DNA from: Sphingomonadaceae bacterium
GTDB lineage: Bacteria; Pseudomonadota; Alphaproteobacteria; Sphingomonadales; Sphingomonadaceae
NCBI GenBank assembly: GCA_020446665.1
Contig: JAGREF010000202.1
Location: 1-6,907 of the forward strand
Direction of reading: 5' to 3'
Length of the DNA: 6,907 nt
In this document: one piece after another, positions 1-6,907 of the stretch
Layout of the letters: each line of letters starts with the position of its first letter
Numbering within the stretch: position 1 is the stretch's first letter
Notes under the pieces: generated by a model
The model's input: only the letters and a program-made list of their open reading frames with translations
The model's database searches: none
Told to the model about the DNA's origin: nothing
Translations under genes and position numbers: made by a program

Positions 1-1197
1 GGCCTGATTTCCGGGCGCAAGCGCGGCTCCACCATCCGGGCAGCCGAACCGACCATTTGCGTCGAATTCTCGCGCAATGCGGCGCTCAAGCTGATTGCCA
101 CCACGCCATCTGTCGGCCGCGCCGTCAACCGCATTTCGATCGAGCGCCAGCTGCTGCAAATGTTCGGCTCCGGCCTGACCCCTGCCGATATTTCCGATCT
201 GGTGGACAAGGCCGAAGTGATCGAAGCCCGCGCCGGGCAGGTCGTGATCGAGGAAGGGGCGGACGACAAGGACATCTTCGTGATCCGCCGTGGCTCCATG
301 ATCGTGGAAAAGGATATTGGCGGCAAGCCGGTGTTCCTCTCTTATCTGCCCGCCGGGTCCTATTTCGGCGAAATGGCGGTGATCGACGGGTCAAGGCGCA
401 GCGCCACGGTCAAGGCAGCGGTAAAATCACAAGTCGTGAAACTGCCGGGCGAGGAATTCCTCAAGGTTCTCGATGCCAAGCCGAAATTGCGCGAGCGGGC
501 GCTGGCCGACATGGCCGGACGCCGCGCCACCAATGAATTTGTCGAAAGCCGCAAGGACAGTTTCGGCAGCGCGGTGGACATGTATTCGCAGACCGCGCAG
601 TTCCTGGTCGATAACGGGATCGGCGAAGCGACGGACGTGCTGCTGATCGACGAGAAGCTGTGCGTGGGCTGCGACAATTGCGAAAAAGCCTGCGCCGACA
701 GCCATGACGGCCTCTCGCGGCTCAACCGTGAAGCGGGCACCACTTATGCCCATCTCCATGTGCCGACATCCTGCCGCCATTGCGAGCATCCGCATTGCAT
801 GGCCGATTGCCCGCCTAATGCGATCAAGCGTGGCCCCGATGGCGAAGTCTTTATTGACGAGACCTGCATCGGCTGCGGCAATTGCCAGCGCAACTGCCCC
901 TATGGCGTGATCCGCATGGATGCCAAGCCGCCGCCCAAGCCATCGCTGCTGTCATGGCTGTTCTTTGGCAAAGGCCCCGGTCCGGGCGAGCCGAGCTATG
1001 GCTGGCGCAAGAAGAAGATGGAGGAACAGGAAGCGGAAACGGGCAAGAAGCCCGGCAAATTCGCGATCAAATGCGACATGTGCTCCGGCATTGAAGGCGG
1101 CCCCAGCTGCGTGCGCGCCTGCCCCACCGGTGCGGCCATCCGCGTCTCGCCAGAGCGTTTCCTCTCCATCACCCGCTTTGCCGAGGAGACCGACTGA
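1..1197 (+). CDS. Cyclic-nucleotide-binding (x2) / four-[4Fe-4S] ferredoxin fusion protein, 5' end cut by window
   Basis: The frame is open from base 1 (398 residues in the window, TGA at 1195-1197), so the true start lies upstream. The Met codon at 160 lies inside the protein. Residues 1-20 are the end of a first cNMP module: SGRKRGSTIRA matches the phosphate-binding cassette and keeps its ligand Arg (R8). Residues about 60-170 are a second complete module with FGEMAVIDGSRRSATV at 122-137, where E124 and R133 are the expected cNMP contacts. Residues 213-390 are an electron-transfer subunit of DmsB/HybA/NrfC type. It has four Cys groups: C221/224/227/231, C258/261/266/270, C289/292/295/299 and C358/361/370/374, enough for four [4Fe-4S] clusters. 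There is no membrane helix in the visible part, and the cNMP modules imply a cytoplasmic location. There is no DNA-binding HTH between or after the modules, so it is not a CRP/FNR regulator. Its likely role, inferred, is a cNMP-responsive Fe-S relay feeding the membrane haem protein encoded next, whose start it overlaps by one base. Confidence 0.9.
   Translation, partial: GLISGRKRGSTIRAAEPTICVEFSRNAALKLIATTPSVGRAVNRISIERQLLQMFGSGLTPADISDLVDKAEVIEARAGQVVIEEGADDKDIFVIRRGSMIVEKDIGGKPVFLSYLPAGSYFGEMAVIDGSRRSATVKAAVKSQVVKLPGEEFLKVLDAKPKLRERALADMAGRRATNEFVESRKDSFGSAVDMYSQTAQFLVDNGIGEATDVLLIDEKLCVGCDNCEKACADSHDGLSRLNREAGTTYAHLHVPTSCRHCEHPHCMADCPPNAIKRGPDGEVFIDETCIGCGNCQRNCPYGVIRMDAKPPPKPSLLSWLFFGKGPGPGEPSYGWRKKKMEEQEAETGKKPGKFAIKCDMCSGIEGGPSCVRACPTGAAIRVSPERFLSITRFAEETD
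1183..1188 (+). promoter_or_regulatory. Ribosome binding site for the cytochrome b gene
   Basis: GAGGAG lies 8 bases before the ATG at 1197, inside the end of the preceding gene. With the TGATG stop/start overlap it supports this start and suggests translational coupling. Confidence 0.7.
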
Positions 1198-2075
1198 TGG
1201 CCTCCATCCCTGACGAAAAGCCGGTGGGCGCAAGCGCGATCGAACAGCGCCGGGCAGCCGATCACAGCAGCTTCCTGACGCACAGGAAATTCCTGTGGCT
1301 GTGGGTGGCTCTGGCCAGCTGCATTGCCGCCATAGCCATCTATTTCAGCATTGACGTACAACCGCGCCCCAATGGCGGCACCTGGTATGGCTATACGCTG
1401 GGCACGATTGGCGCAGGGCTGATCGTGTGGCTCGCGCTGCTGGGTATCCGCAAGCGCAATATGAGCGAAGGCCACTGGTCGCTGAAAGCGTGGACCAGCG
1501 CGCATGTCTATCTCGGCCTCTCGCTGATCGTGATCGCCACCCTGCATACCGGCTTTCAACTGGGCTGGAATGTCCACACGCTGGCCTATGTTCTGATGAT
1601 GATCGTGATCCTTTCGGGCATTTACGGCATCTATGCCTATGTCACTCTGCCACAGGCGCTGAGCGACAATCGCAAGGAAATGACGACGGAAATGATGGTC
1701 GAGGCGCTGACCTCGATTGACGGCCAGCTGCGCCGCGCCGCGCAGCCGCTGGATCGGCATGAAGCCGATACAGTGATCGCCGCGCTGGAACAGGATACGT
1801 TCGGCTTCGGTCTGTGGACCCGGCTCGCCAATCGCTATGGCAATTGCGCCACCACCCGCGCGCTGGATGCTTTTTCCGGCAGCCATGGCAAGGATAGCCC
1901 GCAGGAAACCGTGCGCGCGCTGCTGGCGCGGCGCAAAACACAACTCGACCAGATCCGCCGTCATATGAAGATCAAGGCCATGCTTGAGGTCTGGCTCTTC
2001 ATCCATATCCCTGTAACCATCGCGCTGCTCGCGGCTCTCACCGCGCATATTATCAGCGTGTTCTATTACTGGTGA
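1197..2075 (+). CDS. Five-helix membrane protein, probable di-heme cytochrome b
   Basis: The protein has 292 residues. Predicted helices by eye are at about 32-52, 65-84, 102-121, 126-150 and 263-289. Basic residues (HRK at 29-31, RKR at 85-87, RRHMKIK at 254-260) place the N-terminus and the TM2-TM3 and TM4-TM5 loops in the cytoplasm, and the C-terminus in the periplasm. Helix 3 carries H103 and H117, and helix 5 carries H270 and H284. Both pairs are spaced 14 residues and the helices run parallel, as in the quinone cytochromes b where two helices each give one ligand to a low- and a high-potential haem. I infer H103/H270 near the cytoplasmic face and H117/H284 near the periplasmic face. A long cytoplasmic loop (about 151-261) separates helices 4 and 5. 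No name can be given with confidence. The position between an Fe-S protein gene and a decahaem cytochrome gene suggests a transmembrane electron link, possibly with quinone exchange. Confidence 0.88.
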   Translation: MASIPDEKPVGASAIEQRRAADHSSFLTHRKFLWLWVALASCIAAIAIYFSIDVQPRPNGGTWYGYTLGTIGAGLIVWLALLGIRKRNMSEGHWSLKAWTSAHVYLGLSLIVIATLHTGFQLGWNVHTLAYVLMMIVILSGIYGIYAYVTLPQALSDNRKEMTTEMMVEALTSIDGQLRRAAQPLDRHEADTVIAALEQDTFGFGLWTRLANRYGNCATTRALDAFSGSHGKDSPQETVRALLARRKTQLDQIRRHMKIKAMLEVWLFIHIPVTIALLAALTAHIISVFYYW

Positions 2076-2078
2076 GGG
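2074..2078 (+). promoter_or_regulatory. Ribosome binding site for the FHA-decahaem gene
   Basis: GAGGG overlaps the TGA of the preceding gene and sits 7 bases before the ATG at 2086, fixing that start. The 10-base gap between the genes leaves no room for a separate promoter or terminator. Confidence 0.7.
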
Positions 2079-2085
2079 CGCGGCG

Positions 2086-3924
2086 ATGACTTTCCTGATC
2101 GAGACCATCGACGTCACCGCCAGCGGCCGCGAAATCGTGCGCCGCAAGGAAATGCCCGGCAGCGAGCTCGGTATTGGGCGTGACGCCGCGAATGCAATCC
2201 ACCTTGATGACCTGGCGGTAGAGCTCAACCATGCCCGTGTTACCCAGCGCGAAGACGGGACGCTGGCGGTGGAGGCTGTCAGCTCGCTCGGCTTTACTGT
2301 CGAAGGGCGTCACACCAACAGCGCGATAATCGACCCGCGCGGCGGCGGCGAACTGGGCTTTGGCAATTATCGTCTCACTGTCTCTCAAGGCGAAGGCGGT
2401 GTGCCTGCCATCTCCATCCGCGTTGCAGAAGCAGCCGAAGGTGCACGGGCAGACAAGGTCGGCGGCTTTGCGTTAGCCAGCGCCATGCCCAGCAAGCGCG
2501 TGGTCGCATGGGTTGCGCTGGTCGGCATCCTCATCGCCTTCCTCGCTGTGCCGATTTTCAGCCATCTGACGCGGGACACAGTCAAGCCGGATTATGACCA
2601 GCAAGGCGCAGTGCTGATGGATTCCAGCTGGAGCACCGGCTCGCTCAGCCTCGCCCATGAAGGGCTGGAGGACAATTGCGAGGCCTGCCACGTCACCCCT
2701 TTCGAGGCAGTGACGGACCAGACCTGTCTCAGCTGCCATGGCGAGCTGTCGAAACATATCGACACGATTATCGAGGATCACGCCAAGCCGGACCGCATGG
2801 CCCCTGCTCGCGGCCCGCTGCCCTGGGGGGACCAGATCCAGTGGGATATCGCCCATGCCTTTGGCAAATCCGGCCCCGGTGTCTGTTCGGACTGCCATAC
2901 AGAGCATGAAGGCAAGACGAAGATGCAACCAGCCGCGCAGGCCTTCTGCGCCGATTGCCATGACAGTCTGGACAAGCGCCTGACCGATACAGAGCTGGGC
3001 AATGCGGGCGATTTCGGCACTGCTCACCCACAGTTTAAGGCGGTTCTGTTCACAGAGCCGGGGCAGAAAGACCCGGTGCGCCTCTCGCTCGACAGCCAGC
3101 CAAAGGAATATAACGGGCTGCGTTTCCCGCATGATGTGCATCTCGACAAGCGCGGCGGGGTGGCGCGCATGGCAATGCGGATCGGGGCCAAGCGCGGCTA
3201 TGGCGCCGGCGGGATGGAGTGCAAGGATTGCCATCGCCTCAACAAGGATGAGAGCGATTATCTGCCGGTCGAGATGGAGCGGGATTGCGAAGCCTGCCAC
3301 AGCCTCGTTTTTGATAGCAGCGGCGGCCAGTTCCGTTCGCTGGAACATGGCGATGTCGGCAAGATGCAGGCAGCGCTGGCGCGGCTTGACCGGGCTCCGC
3401 GTCGACCGATCGTGACAGATCGCCGCCGCCCCGGTGAATATGCGCGTGGCGGGCTCTATTATCAGGACTTCGGCCAGCCGCAGCGCGGACTGATCGCGAT
3501 CAACCGGGCGCTGTCCAGGGGCGGGGTCTGCGGCGATTGCCATATCCCGACCAGTAAGGGATCACGAGCAGGCGTGATGCCGGTAAACCTGCCCGACAAA
3601 TATTTCATCCGCGGCTTCTTCGATCACAAGACGCATGAGAAGGATGCCGAATGCAGCGATTGCCATCTGGCGGGTCAGTCTAAGAGCGCCGACGATTTGC
3701 TGATGCCCGCGATCAAGCAATGCCGCGATTGCCATATGGGCGAAGCGGACAAGAAGGCGGATGTTCCCTCCAGCTGTGCAATGTGCCATGCTTACCATCC
3801 GCGTAATGGCCTGATGCCAGCCATCGACCCGCATCGGAAAGACAAGAAGAGCATTTCGGACAGAAAGACGATTGCCGGAATTCTGCCAAAGCAGAGGCCA
3901 GCAAGCCGCGCGGGTGGGGAATAG
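2086..3924 (+). CDS. FHA domain - membrane helix - decahaem cytochrome c (cytochrome c3 family-like)
   Basis: The protein has 612 residues. Residues about 1-100 form an FHA domain: GIGRDAANAIHL at 29-40 has the conserved Gly-Arg (G31, R32), and H49 in VELNHARV is kept. One strong membrane helix at about 139-158 follows, preceded by K137 and R138. Because the N-terminal domain has no signal peptide, this helix probably acts as an uncleaved signal anchor, leaving FHA in the cytoplasm and exporting the rest. Ten CxxCH motifs follow, with first Cys at 198, 214, 267, 288, 379, 401, 482, 523, 546 and 564. Extra His in FPHDVH (349, 352) and FDHKTH (514, 517) look like distal haem ligands typical of multihaem cytochromes. 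The C-terminal tail after residue 580 is basic and haem-free. The likely role, inferred, is to take electrons from or give them to the co-encoded di-heme b protein on the periplasmic side. The partners further out are unknown. Confidence 0.93.
   Translation: MTFLIETIDVTASGREIVRRKEMPGSELGIGRDAANAIHLDDLAVELNHARVTQREDGTLAVEAVSSLGFTVEGRHTNSAIIDPRGGGELGFGNYRLTVSQGEGGVPAISIRVAEAAEGARADKVGGFALASAMPSKRVVAWVALVGILIAFLAVPIFSHLTRDTVKPDYDQQGAVLMDSSWSTGSLSLAHEGLEDNCEACHVTPFEAVTDQTCLSCHGELSKHIDTIIEDHAKPDRMAPARGPLPWGDQIQWDIAHAFGKSGPGVCSDCHTEHEGKTKMQPAAQAFCADCHDSLDKRLTDTELGNAGDFGTAHPQFKAVLFTEPGQKDPVRLSLDSQPKEYNGLRFPHDVHLDKRGGVARMAMRIGAKRGYGAGGMECKDCHRLNKDESDYLPVEMERDCEACHSLVFDSSGGQFRSLEHGDVGKMQAALARLDRAPRRPIVTDRRRPGEYARGGLYYQDFGQPQRGLIAINRALSRGGVCGDCHIPTSKGSRAGVMPVNLPDKYFIRGFFDHKTHEKDAECSDCHLAGQSKSADDLLMPAIKQCRDCHMGEADKKADVPSSCAMCHAYHPRNGLMPAIDPHRKDKKSISDRKTIAGILPKQRPASRAGGE
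3916..3920 (+). promoter_or_regulatory. Ribosome binding site supporting the GTG start at 3927
   Basis: GGGGA lies 6 bases before GTG at 3927, at the end of the decahaem gene. The next in-frame Met codon is 42 codons further on, past the essential DxH metal motif, so the GTG start is required. Confidence 0.6.
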
Positions 3925-3926
3925 AC

Positions 3927-4775
3927 GTGCTGATTGCGCAGTTGACGGATATCCATATCGGCTTCGAGCCTGACGCAAGGCCGGAGGAGCTCAACCGCAT
4001 CCGTTTCCGCGCGACCCTCGCCCGGGTTCTGGATGGCCCAAACCGGCCGGACATGCTGGTGGCAACCGGCGACATGACCGATCACGGCGATCATGACAGC
4101 TTCCTCAAGACCGCTGAATTGCTCGCAGCCTGCCCCTTCCCCGTGCTGCCCATGGTGGGTAATCACGATAGCCGCGAAGGACTGCTGGCGGCCTTTCCGG
4201 ATACGCCGACCAATGATGGTTTCGTGCAATATGAAGTCGAGAAGGATGGGCTGCGCATCCTGCTGCTCGATACGCTGGAGCCGGGCCGCCATGGCGGTGC
4301 ATTTTGCGAGCGGCGCGAGGCATGGCTGAGTGACCGGCTGCATGAAAAGCCGGACCAGCCCACGCTGATCTTCATGCATCACCCGCCGGTTGTCGCCGGG
4401 ATTGACTGGATGGACCCGGTCATGAGCGAACCGTGGATCGCCCGCTTTGCTGCGGCGGTGCGGGGTCACAGCCAGATCGTGGGCATCCATTGCGGGCATC
4501 TCCACCGCCCGATCTTCACCATGTTCGAAGGCCACCCACTGGGCGTGACTCCGTCTGTCGCGCCGCTGGTGGCCATGGATCTGCGCCCGATTGACCCGGA
4601 TACGCCTGACGGACGCGACCTGATCACTACCGAGCCACCCACTTACGCCCTCCATCGGTGGGACGGGACGCGGCTGGTAACCCATTACGAACGCGTGAGC
4701 GACTGGCGCGTACTCGCCAGCTTCACCCCGCATTTGCAGGGGATGATCCGGGAAATGTTCGCGGAGCGGAATTAG
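3927..4775 (+). CDS. CpdA-type (class III) metallophosphoesterase, probable cyclic-nucleotide phosphodiesterase
   Basis: The protein has 282 residues, close to the usual size of class III cyclic-nucleotide phosphodiesterases (CpdA, Rv0805). The five metal-site blocks occur in the standard order and spacing: TDIHIG (D8, H10), TGDMTDHG (D49), VGNHDSR (N79, H80), MHHPPV (H151) and CGHLHRP (H191, H193). These bind a two-metal centre (commonly Fe and Mn) that hydrolyses a phosphodiester bond. There is no signal peptide or membrane helix, so the enzyme is cytoplasmic, as expected for cAMP breakdown. The start is a GTG two bases after the decahaem gene stop, which may lower expression. Placement in an operon with a cNMP-binding redox protein suggests that it removes that protein's ligand. 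Family members also act on other phosphodiesters or nucleotides, so cAMP specificity is inferred and untested. Confidence 0.9.
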   Translation: MLIAQLTDIHIGFEPDARPEELNRIRFRATLARVLDGPNRPDMLVATGDMTDHGDHDSFLKTAELLAACPFPVLPMVGNHDSREGLLAAFPDTPTNDGFVQYEVEKDGLRILLLDTLEPGRHGGAFCERREAWLSDRLHEKPDQPTLIFMHHPPVVAGIDWMDPVMSEPWIARFAAAVRGHSQIVGIHCGHLHRPIFTMFEGHPLGVTPSVAPLVAMDLRPIDPDTPDGRDLITTEPPTYALHRWDGTRLVTHYERVSDWRVLASFTPHLQGMIREMFAERN

Positions 4776-5131
4776 GGTCGGTCGCGCAAGATGAAGGGCA
4801 TGGCCCCAAGCAAATAGCCAAGAAAGGCCGCTTGCAAAGGCAGCGAGTAAGCGAAAGCAGGGAAACCAAGCCCGATCAGCGCATAGGCATTGATCGCCAC
4901 ATCGGCGATCATGATCACAAGACCAAGCCACAGAGCCATGGCGACCTTTCGCCACACAATAAGGCCGGCCACAGCAAGGTCCAGTGGCAGCAGCAGCGTC
5001 CAGAACCAGTTCAGCCCGATCGGGGCGAAGCGATAGGGCAGCCAGCCGCCTAGCACGATATCCTTCAGGTGAAACAGCCCACCGATCAGGAATAGCGCGC
5101 CGATAATCACGAGGCTGATCCGGCGGACCAA
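4772..5131 (-). CDS. Small four-helix membrane protein of unknown function
   Basis: The protein has 119 residues and is strongly hydrophobic. It has four likely membrane helices at about 4-22, 38-60, 63-86 and 95-115, short loops and RR or RK at helix ends. I see no metal, haem or catalytic motif and do not recognise a family. The start is a TTG at 5129-5131: there is no in-frame ATG or GTG between it and the TAG that ends the upstream gene, and a G-rich stretch sits 5 bases before it. A GTG at codon 8 is the alternative but would cut into helix 1. It follows the LVIVD-repeat gene by 12 bases on the same strand, so the two are probably co-transcribed. Its TAA overlaps the stop of the convergent phosphodiesterase gene by 4 bases. 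Hydrophobic composition over the full length argues that it is real and not a shadow of the 131-codon plus-strand reading frame opposite it. Confidence 0.72.
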   Translation of the reverse strand: MVRRISLVIIGALFLIGGLFHLKDIVLGGWLPYRFAPIGLNWFWTLLLPLDLAVAGLIVWRKVAMALWLGLVIMIADVAINAYALIGLGFPAFAYSLPLQAAFLGYLLGAMPFILRDRP

Positions 5132-5136
5132 CTGAA

Positions 5137-5144
5137 CCCCCGCC
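5137..5144 (-). promoter_or_regulatory. Ribosome binding site supporting the TTG start of the small membrane protein
   Basis: On the minus strand the sequence GGCGGGGG lies 5 bases before the TTG at 5131. It is G-rich rather than a perfect AGGAGG match, so support is moderate. Confidence 0.45.
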
Positions 5145-6907
5145 TACTGCCCGCCCTGCGCCTCTTCCAGTTCCGGCGCGCTGTCAGCACTGCGCCATGA
5201 CCCGCCGCCGACCCATGCGCCCATATCCACATCATCGCTGACCTTCCAGGGGAAGCCACCACGAGTGAGGAACAGCCGCTCCATCTCGGCGCGGGTAAAG
5301 GGACGCGAGCCCAACCGTCCGAAGATTGCGATCTGCCCCCCGGTCTCGTCCACCGCACGGTCCCGTGCGAGGCCGCGCGACATGGCAATTGCGGGCCCCT
5401 TGGTCTTCGCCCAGGCGACCAGTTCGGGCATCGGTTTGGGCGAGAAGCCATAGAAATTGCGCTGGCTGTCGGGGCTGGTCATCTGGATGACTTTCATCCC
5501 GTTCACCCCATCCGCGACATAGGCGAAGAGCGAAGCATTGGTGGAGCCAAGCACCACATCTTCCGCATCATTCATCAGCCCGCCCAACGTTTCGCGCTTG
5601 TATATCTTGGGTGCCATCGGGCGGGTCACATCCACGATAACCAGACCATCCTGCTTGGCCGCGACATAGGCATAGGTTCGCGCAATATAGAGACGCCGGG
5701 CATTGGCGAGTTCAATCGTCGCCTCGGGCACCGCCACCGGATTGCGCATATTGGTGACGTCGAACAGCTTCAGCCCGTCCATATCCGTGACCCAAAGATA
5801 GCGGAACTGGATCGCGCTGGCCCGCGCATCCTGCAATTCGCGCACGGCCGCCAATTGCGGATTGAGCGGGTCAGAAAGGTCCACGACCACCAGCCCGCGA
5901 TCTGCGGTGATATAGGCGATTTCGCCCGCCAGATGGATGTGCCGCGCACCATTCAGCACGCCGCCTTCATTCCATGTCACCGCCCGCTTCAGCTTGTTGT
6001 TGCGGAATTCGCCATCCGCAAGCGTATCGACATTGACGAGGATCAGCCCCTCTTCGGAATCGGTGATCGCAGCATAGTGATAGATCGGCAGGAAGGGCTG
6101 TTCCTGGTTCATCTCCTGCATTTCCGGCGTGTTGCGCGTCGGGGCGATGGCCTGTTCCGTGGGCAGCGCCATGCAGGTGGCATTGGCGCTCTTCACCCGC
6201 GTATCATGGCCGAGCGCTGAGAAAGGCCCTTCGATAATCCGTTCGGAGAAGCCTTTGTTCGCGATGCTCGCCACGTCATAGACAGCAAAGCCGCCCTTGC
6301 CCTCGGCCACGAACATATATTCACCGCGCAATTGCAGGCAGCCTACCCGTCCGCTGGTCCCTTCATGGACATTGGCGAATTGTTCGAGCGGCTTGGTCTC
6401 GCCCGACAGATTGTCGTCAAACGCCTGCCCGCGGGTCCAGTCCTTCAATTCGCGGTCATTATCGTCCACGAATTGCCGGTAATATTCGGGATAGGCATAT
6501 TTGTGCAGGTAAGATCCAAGCACAGCCTGCGGCTCGTCATATTCAGTCACGCGGATCGCTTCGAAGCCGCCTTCTTCACCGGTCCAGGCATTCAGCCCAA
6601 CGAAGTTGACGTAATTCGTACCCAGCAGCAGCAACTGGGCCATGATCGCATTATTGTCATCCGCTTCGGACAGATGGCAATCGGTGCAGGTCTTGGTCTC
6701 GGTCAGGCGCACTGTATGCGGGAAATGCGGAGCGAAGGCCTGACTGGAATAGCCCACCGCGCTGATCGGGGGCTGCTGCACATAGATACGTTCGCGGTTG
6801 ATATTGGTGGAAGACAGGACCAGCGCCGAGCTGGAACGGACCGGCGCAACCTGATTGCCCTTGGTCGTCTGATGCTTGCCCAGCTGGAACATCTGGTCGC
6901 GCGCCAC
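5144..6907 (-). CDS. LVIVD-repeat beta-propeller protein with a CxxCH haem c motif, 5' end cut by window
   Basis: 587 codons are visible, ending with TAG at 5144-5146. The codon at the window edge (GTG, 6905-6907) begins an unremarkable polar stretch with no signal peptide, so the protein very likely continues upstream. Residues are counted from that edge. CTDCH at 74-78 is a haem c site preceded by HFPH (61-64), a pattern in which the earlier His can be a distal haem ligand. At least six LVIVD-type repeats follow, starting near residues 206 (GFAVYDV), 287 (GLILVNV), 338 (GLVVVDLSDPLNP), 378 (GLKLFDVTNMRNP), 421 (GLVIVDVTRPMAP) and 470 (GMKVIQM). Each is preceded by a short aromatic/Val strand such as YAYVAA, as expected for propeller blades. 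Haem c attachment requires a periplasmic or extracellular location. The catalytic role is unknown. It may be a haem-carrying scaffold or a partner of the convergent multihaem operon. Confidence 0.87.
   Translation of the reverse strand: MARDQMFQLGKHQTTKGNQVAPVRSSSALVLSSTNINRERIYVQQPPISAVGYSSQAFAPHFPHTVRLTETKTCTDCHLSEADDNNAIMAQLLLLGTNYVNFVGLNAWTGEEGGFEAIRVTEYDEPQAVLGSYLHKYAYPEYYRQFVDDNDRELKDWTRGQAFDDNLSGETKPLEQFANVHEGTSGRVGCLQLRGEYMFVAEGKGGFAVYDVASIANKGFSERIIEGPFSALGHDTRVKSANATCMALPTEQAIAPTRNTPEMQEMNQEQPFLPIYHYAAITDSEEGLILVNVDTLADGEFRNNKLKRAVTWNEGGVLNGARHIHLAGEIAYITADRGLVVVDLSDPLNPQLAAVRELQDARASAIQFRYLWVTDMDGLKLFDVTNMRNPVAVPEATIELANARRLYIARTYAYVAAKQDGLVIVDVTRPMAPKIYKRETLGGLMNDAEDVVLGSTNASLFAYVADGVNGMKVIQMTSPDSQRNFYGFSPKPMPELVAWAKTKGPAIAMSRGLARDRAVDETGGQIAIFGRLGSRPFTRAEMERLFLTRGGFPWKVSDDVDMGAWVGGGSWRSADSAPELEEAQGGQ

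Follow-up and report, generated by a model that had tools for sequence, protein, structure and literature searches.

A Sphingomonadales gene locus for a predicted NAD(P)H-fed electron conduit with cyclic nucleotide-binding domains

Gene content of the locus

The locus described here lies on a stretch of 6,907 nucleotides (the window), listed as C119 among the contigs of a Sphingomonadales draft genome (2.37 Mb; 77% complete). Four genes on the forward strand follow one another almost without interruption. Genes 1 and 2 overlap by 1 base, gaps of 10 and 2 bases separate genes 2 and 3 and genes 3 and 4, and a convergent operon begins beyond them. A first-pass annotation made from the letters of the window had described four adjacent same-strand genes at most 10 bases apart, and the coordinates of the open reading frames (ORFs) bear this out. 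The domains it predicted for the four proteins also hold, with the FHA match of gene 3 just under the Pfam cut-off. Together these genes are predicted to encode an electron conduit across the inner membrane, fed by reduced nicotinamide nucleotides, NAD(P)H, whose entry protein may be switched by cyclic AMP (cAMP).

Gene 1 (1..1197, +) is open at the 5' edge of the window, which holds the C-terminal 398 residues of a protein with a median length of 817 residues among its relatives. This part contains the tail of a first cyclic nucleotide monophosphate (cNMP) binding domain and one complete second domain (223..474, +; residues 75-158; PF00027, E 7e-19), in which the phosphate-binding cassette, Gly-Glu ... 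Arg-Ser-Ala-Thr, is intact. It is followed by Fer4 clusters of the DmsB/HydN type, with 16 cysteines forming four predicted [4Fe-4S] sites (640..1134, +; located by domain match and alignment).

The other half of gene 1 is found on contig C438 of the same genome. The end of C438 matches the first 25 bases of the window (1..25) exactly, and the contig carries an N-terminal FAD/NAD(P) (flavin adenine dinucleotide/nicotinamide nucleotide) half with 71% identity to a full-length homologue. That homologue (L116:8603-11095) contains Pyr_redox_3 (3e-26), PF00027 twice and the Fer4 relay. The complete gene-1 protein is a predicted NAD(P)H dehydrogenase joined to two cNMP domains and a 4x[4Fe-4S] relay. 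It had been annotated as a protein with two cNMP domains and four clusters, which is confirmed. Since gene 1 begins with an FAD/NAD(P) oxidoreductase, the wire has a predicted electron source of its own.

Gene 2 (1197..2075, +) encodes a membrane protein predicted from its ORF, an alignment and an AlphaFold model to hold two haems b, at His103/117 and His270/284. Gene 3 (2086..3924, +) combines an FHA-like domain (2143..2376, +), a single transmembrane helix predicted by a hydropathy scan (2500..2556, +; residues 139-157) and a decahaem c-type cytochrome with ten CXXCH haem sites (2677..3789, +). Gene 4 (3927..4775, +) encodes a predicted phosphodiesterase of class III, the metallophosphoesterase class, recognised by domain match (Metallophos, E 7e-16) and by its motifs.

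Conservation and fusion of the gene set

The first-pass annotation had suggested a neighbourhood search across other genomes, in which the four genes were expected to stay together. This is what was found. The best relatives of gene 1 come under Sphingomonadales and Erythrobacteraceae titles. In the best 80 of 571 confirmed places, matches to genes 1, 2 and 3 occur together in 78; the two exceptions, L032 and L058, run off their contigs. A match to gene 4 is present in all 69 loci that extend at least 1.5 kb past gene 3. The median spacing is -1, 10 and 2 bases for the gene pairs 1-2, 2-3 and 3-4 (n = 76, 76 and 55).

In a sample of 98 related genomes, including that of the window, gene 3 is found in 21, all belonging to one family. 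The first three genes also occur outside this family. A spread of 398 genomes from the phylum, searched with gene 2, gave 31 matches at E <= 0.001 and 15 at E < 1e-30. All seven genomes that lie outside the family and match at E < 1e-30 have genes 1, 2 and 3 in this order. Moreover, genes 1 and 2 form a single ORF of 1118-1123 residues in two of the seven, both of the same genus (L165:3052-6423 and L167:6850-10206). Such a fusion is good evidence of cooperation between the iron-sulfur and membrane proteins.

Relatives of gene 2 are numerous. With the distant Colwellia copy as query, 3,231 proteins match at E <= 0.001, not each of which need be in such a locus.

Nucleotide pockets and cofactor sites

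The alignment of gene-1 pockets comprises 84 homologues, namely 77 taken from the 80 loci, some of these truncated where a contig stops, and the seven distant ones, which are 41-64% identical to the L116 protein. Domains of the CRP/PKA type bind cyclic nucleotides through a phosphate-binding cassette whose signature is a Gly-Glu pair and an Arg. In both cNMP domains of gene 1 the pocket Gly, Glu and Arg, six of six residues tested, are invariant in 84/84 homologues; over the whole of the two domains, 15/112 and 10/115 columns are invariant (9-13%). With the window included, the Gly, Glu and Arg of domain 2 and the Arg of domain 1 are invariant in 85/85. Both domains have the CRP/PKA-type cassette, and both predicted nucleotide pockets are intact. 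The residue after the pocket Arg is mostly Thr or Ser in domain 2 and Gly in domain 1.

The redox sites of gene 1 are likewise conserved. Its 16 iron-sulfur cysteines, in four sets, are invariant in 85/85 aligned sequences and follow the pattern of a DmsB/HycB-type relay. The FAD and NAD(P) motifs, GXGXX(G/A), appear in 8/8 listed alignment rows covering that region, as in the pyridine nucleotide-disulphide oxidoreductase fold. In NCBIfam the FAD half matches YpdA best (1.9e-29) and the iron-sulfur half AegA, both under the cut-off. Thioredoxin reductase was rejected as an identity because the protein from L036 has no CXXC in its FAD domain; its first 400 residues have cysteines only at 247, 266 and 307. 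In the 60 chains listed out of 168 PDB matches, no name combines cNMP binding with a flavin or iron-sulfur domain.

In gene 2, the histidine pairs 103/117 and 270/284, each 14 residues apart, are invariant in 87/87 sequences. The protein had been described as having five helices and two such pairs, and the second part of this description stands. The helix count depends on the method: the AlphaFold model has six helices of at least 19 residues, one of which (164-182) appears polar on visual inspection, so that five are candidates for membrane helices, versus four in a simple hydropathy scan.

Each of the 76 gene-3 homologues drawn from these 80 loci carries exactly ten CXXCH motifs. The gene 3 copies beside the fused gene 1-2 ORFs have nine. 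The transmembrane segment and the ten haem sites agree with the earlier description of gene 3; its FHA domain is less secure, with a PF00498 match (E 0.003) that reaches 18.4 bits against a cut-off of 20.7. The core of an FHA domain that reads phosphothreonine consists of Gly-Arg, Ser and His. In 84 sequences the Gly-Arg is always present, and the position of the phosphate-binding Ser is Glu in 72 (also in the window) and Ser in one. Phosphothreonine reading is therefore unlikely, and the domain looks degenerate. Kinase control through the FHA domain was dropped as an explanation for this reason.

The five motifs of class III metallophosphoesterases are found by pattern in 54/57 homologues of gene 4, or in 56/57 if two over-long starts are allowed for. 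These two (L049 and L108) hold all five motifs, and the remaining one (L051) lacks GNH. The nearest NCBIfam families are SpdA and CpdA, and Rv0805 is another relative.

The convergent operon

The system extends beyond genes 1-4 to a second module, predicted to belong to the outer envelope. On the reverse strand, the window encodes the C-terminal 587 residues of a decahaem LVIVD-repeat protein (5144..6907, -), whose ORF runs off the window end. The last 25 bases (6883..6907) overlap exactly and in frame with the end of contig C56 from the same genome, which supplies the start of the protein and the other nine CXXCH motifs. The protein has 1371 residues in genome G001. Apart from the N-terminus of the LVIVD protein, C56 encodes a cyclase, a protein of 243 residues, a c554-related multihaem cytochrome, an HbpS-like protein and a porin; the operon is convergent to genes 1-4. 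A different arrangement is seen in one Porphyrobacter metagenome-assembled genome (L034:1-4421), where porin and LVIVD genes precede gene 1 in the same orientation instead of converging on it.

The LVIVD protein is present in 21/21 genomes with gene 3 and in 1/77 without it, also where the two loci lie far apart. For the cyclase, orthologues at E < 1e-100, a cut chosen after the table was seen, occur in 17/21 genomes with gene 3 and 1/77 without (Fisher p 2e-14, uncorrected for ancestry). The cyclase gene sits in the LVIVD operon in the genome of the window. In the 16 other genomes its distance from the LVIVD gene is at most 14 kb in 8 cases and 22-25 kb in two, and in 6 it is far away or on another contig. 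In three of the seven distant genomes, porin and HbpS-like genes follow genes 1-3 in the same orientation, joined in two of these genomes by an LVIVD gene. Colwellia, Thalassotalea and Pseudomonadales are among the named sources of proteins related to the distant gene 2 and porin.

The cyclase combines PF00211 with a CHASE2 domain, both in the genome of the window and in G001. The catalytic motifs of class III cyclases are a metal-binding Asp pair, a Lys/Asp pair (the adenylate type) and Asn/Arg. The metal, Lys/Asp and Asn/Arg patterns of a class III adenylate cyclase are found in 10/10 orthologues checked, and a weak match in the distant locus L161 fails. Judged by these residues, the CHASE2 protein likely makes cAMP. 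The 243-residue protein (L160:4962-5690), labelled FecR-like, is encoded 3' of the cyclase in 10/11 loci, with a weak match in the eleventh, L172. It has no Pfam or NCBIfam match and is possibly a partner of the cyclase.

The L161 locus has a gene-4-like ORF (16944-17804) that directly adjoins the cyclase-like ORF (17808-19670), 4.7 kb past gene 3. With 28% identity and no catalytic pattern found, the latter was dropped as support for a cAMP-producing enzyme.

Proposed electron route and its control

The observations are the gene content, the overlapping contigs, the linkage and fusion of genes, their co-occurrence, and the invariance of residues in pockets and cofactor sites; from these we infer protein functions, ligand, gating, electron direction and acceptor as follows. 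NAD(P)H would reduce the FAD domain of the gene-1 protein, and electrons would pass through the four [4Fe-4S] clusters to the two haems b of gene 2. From there they would reach the periplasmic decahaem domain of gene 3, and then the c554-related cytochrome and the decahaem LVIVD protein in the envelope. These envelope cytochromes may act on a substrate, with the AlgE-like porin as its probable way in.

Since the cNMP domains lie between the FAD and iron-sulfur domains, nucleotide binding would alter their coupling. A conformational change may either couple or uncouple the dehydrogenase and the relay. The CHASE2 domain is predicted to be a periplasmic sensor, through which the cyclase would adjust cAMP to a signal from the envelope. 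Gene 4 would have one of two roles, breakdown of cAMP or protection of the cNMP domains from 2',3'-cNMP.

An NAD(P)H-fed conduit across the inner membrane with a cAMP-switched entry protein, as predicted from these sequences, is given about an even chance. The fuller scheme, in which the CHASE2 cyclase is the maker, the cNMP domains of gene 1 the reader and the class III phosphodiesterase the eraser of the signal, is held more tentatively, as plausible and somewhat short of probable. It would be the first trans-membrane conduit gated by a second messenger.

Control of trans-membrane electron flow is known mainly through gene expression, substrate supply and membrane potential. If the proposal is true, a second messenger would exert direct allosteric control over a redox wire. 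The system would be an electronic analogue of the cyclic-nucleotide-gated ion channel, switching the flow of reductant to the envelope. Given how numerous gene-2 relatives are, a set of decahaem and LVIVD proteins that lack annotation in common bacteria would also gain a function.

Alternative explanations

The first-pass annotation had already read genes 1-4 as a conduit controlled by a cyclic nucleotide, and this interpretation is partly supported. The recurrence of the four-gene set, the fusion of genes 1 and 2 and the intact pockets speak for it, and the degenerate FHA domain speaks against it. Several further observations weigh on the same side. The co-occurrence counts ignore shared ancestry, all 21 positive genomes being from one family. 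Of three stretches read around weaker gene-2 hits, L169 weakly matches part of gene 1 and genes 2 and 3, and L168 and L170 match only genes 2 and 3, in order. The model of the porin, with 18 long strands, resembles AlgE (AlgE/OprD-like) and is not evidently a sheath for a cytochrome.

Gene 4 is the weakest link of the maker, reader and eraser scheme, being only a possible cAMP-destroying enzyme. It scores 74 bits for CpdA against a cut-off of 225, and 136 bits for SpdA against a cut-off of 400. The identification as a class III phosphodiesterase stands on its five motifs, and of the two families SpdA scores higher. According to PMC4222275, SpdA of S. meliloti cleaves 2',3'-cAMP, activity towards 3',5'-cAMP being undetectable; Rv0805 prefers 2',3'-cNMP, and SpdA is suggested to insulate cAMP signalling from 2',3'-cNMP. 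Because gene 4 resembles SpdA and Rv0805 at least as much as CpdA, its role as an eraser of cAMP is unproven. By analogy, it could likewise provide insulation from 2',3'-cNMP.

The conduit may also be real without being gated. The cNMP domains would then serve assembly, dimerisation or localisation, or would bind a nucleotide with no effect on turnover. This explanation is consistent with the seven distant genomes, where the stretches examined hold no gene 4 or cyclase beside the wire save the weak matches in L161, and with the four of 21 family genomes (G013, G015, G031 and G051) that lack a cyclase orthologue at the cut used. Purely structural domains would be expected to lose their pocket residues, and all six are invariant in 84/84 homologues, also in loci with no detected cyclase or phosphodiesterase. 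An ungated conduit is regarded as unlikely, if still a serious contender. Another model places the action of cAMP solely in transcription: the cyclase and gene 4 would serve a CRP-type regulator, and co-regulation would account for their linkage to the wire. A precedent exists in S. meliloti, where the cyaD1 cyclase locus includes spdA, a gene for a class III phosphodiesterase, and the effects of cAMP are mediated by the regulator Clr (PMC4222275). The genome of the window has other cNMP-domain frames as well, for example a 277-residue frame on contig C300. Against this, intact cNMP domains sit within the redox protein itself, and no CRP-type gene was noticed among the neighbouring ORFs, although no search was aimed at one. 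A purely transcriptional role is considered improbable.

Electrons could also flow inward. The porin would admit a reduced compound, the decahaem proteins would oxidise it, and gene 1 would reduce NAD(P)+. The parts fit either direction, and an AlgE/OprD-like porin suits the import of small substrates. Reducing NAD(P)+ from periplasmic haems would be uphill unless the membrane potential helps. Moreover, the best 80 loci carry mostly Sphingomonadales titles, and these, like Colwellia, Thalassotalea and Pseudomonadales among the sources named above for relatives of the distant gene 2 and porin, are mainly heterotrophs. Inward flow is judged to have a rather small chance, and the outward, NAD(P)H-fed conduit is preferred.

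Relation to known systems

An inner-membrane electron transfer system made of a multihaem cytochrome c, a membrane protein and a 4x[4Fe-4S] subunit is found in the Hmc, Tmc, Qrc and Dsr complexes of sulfate reducers. Those complexes are not known to have an NAD(P)H or cNMP domain. The models of HmcA, HmcB, DsrO, TmcA and QrcA all match here under their NCBIfam cut-offs, those of HmcA, HmcB, TmcA and QrcA far under. The extracellular electron transfer systems MtrCAB/Pcc and CbcL resemble the present system in joining a multihaem inner-membrane module to an outer-envelope module with a porin and a decahaem protein. They differ in that the porin here is AlgE-like with 18 long strands, and the predicted electron source is NAD(P)H rather than quinol.

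Gene 1 itself is nearest, under the cut-offs, to AegA/HydN and to flavoproteins of the YpdA/thioredoxin-reductase kind. It is set apart by two cNMP domains between its halves, by a membrane partner and by the absence of CXXC (seen in L036). Intact cNMP cassettes that control a fused or bound effector are found in PKA and PKG, in the MlotiK1 and SthK channels and in mycobacterial Pat; those of gene 1 adjoin redox modules instead. In the CyaD1/SpdA/Clr system of S. meliloti, a receptor-like adenylate cyclase likewise has a class III phosphodiesterase next to it (PMC4222275), whereas the cAMP reader there is a transcription factor.

The component families are known, and their combination is a variant of trans-membrane electron transfer that would be a new kind if gating were shown. 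The first-pass annotation knew of no named system with this combination, and none of the papers listed by searches of an open-access library describes it, judged by titles and the starts of abstracts.

Neighbouring genes

Between gene 4 and the LVIVD gene, a small membrane-like ORF of 119 residues (4772..5131, -) was matched in the ORF comparison solely in L006, a locus of the same genome. On the other side, in L036 (7716-8609, -) and L116 (7542-8486, -), a family scan assigns the divergent gene upstream of gene 1 to TPR proteins of the CcmH/CycH type, which serve cytochrome c maturation. The ORF in the corresponding place on contig C438 of the window's genome (L180:1401-2339, +) is recognised as such a gene by likeness only.

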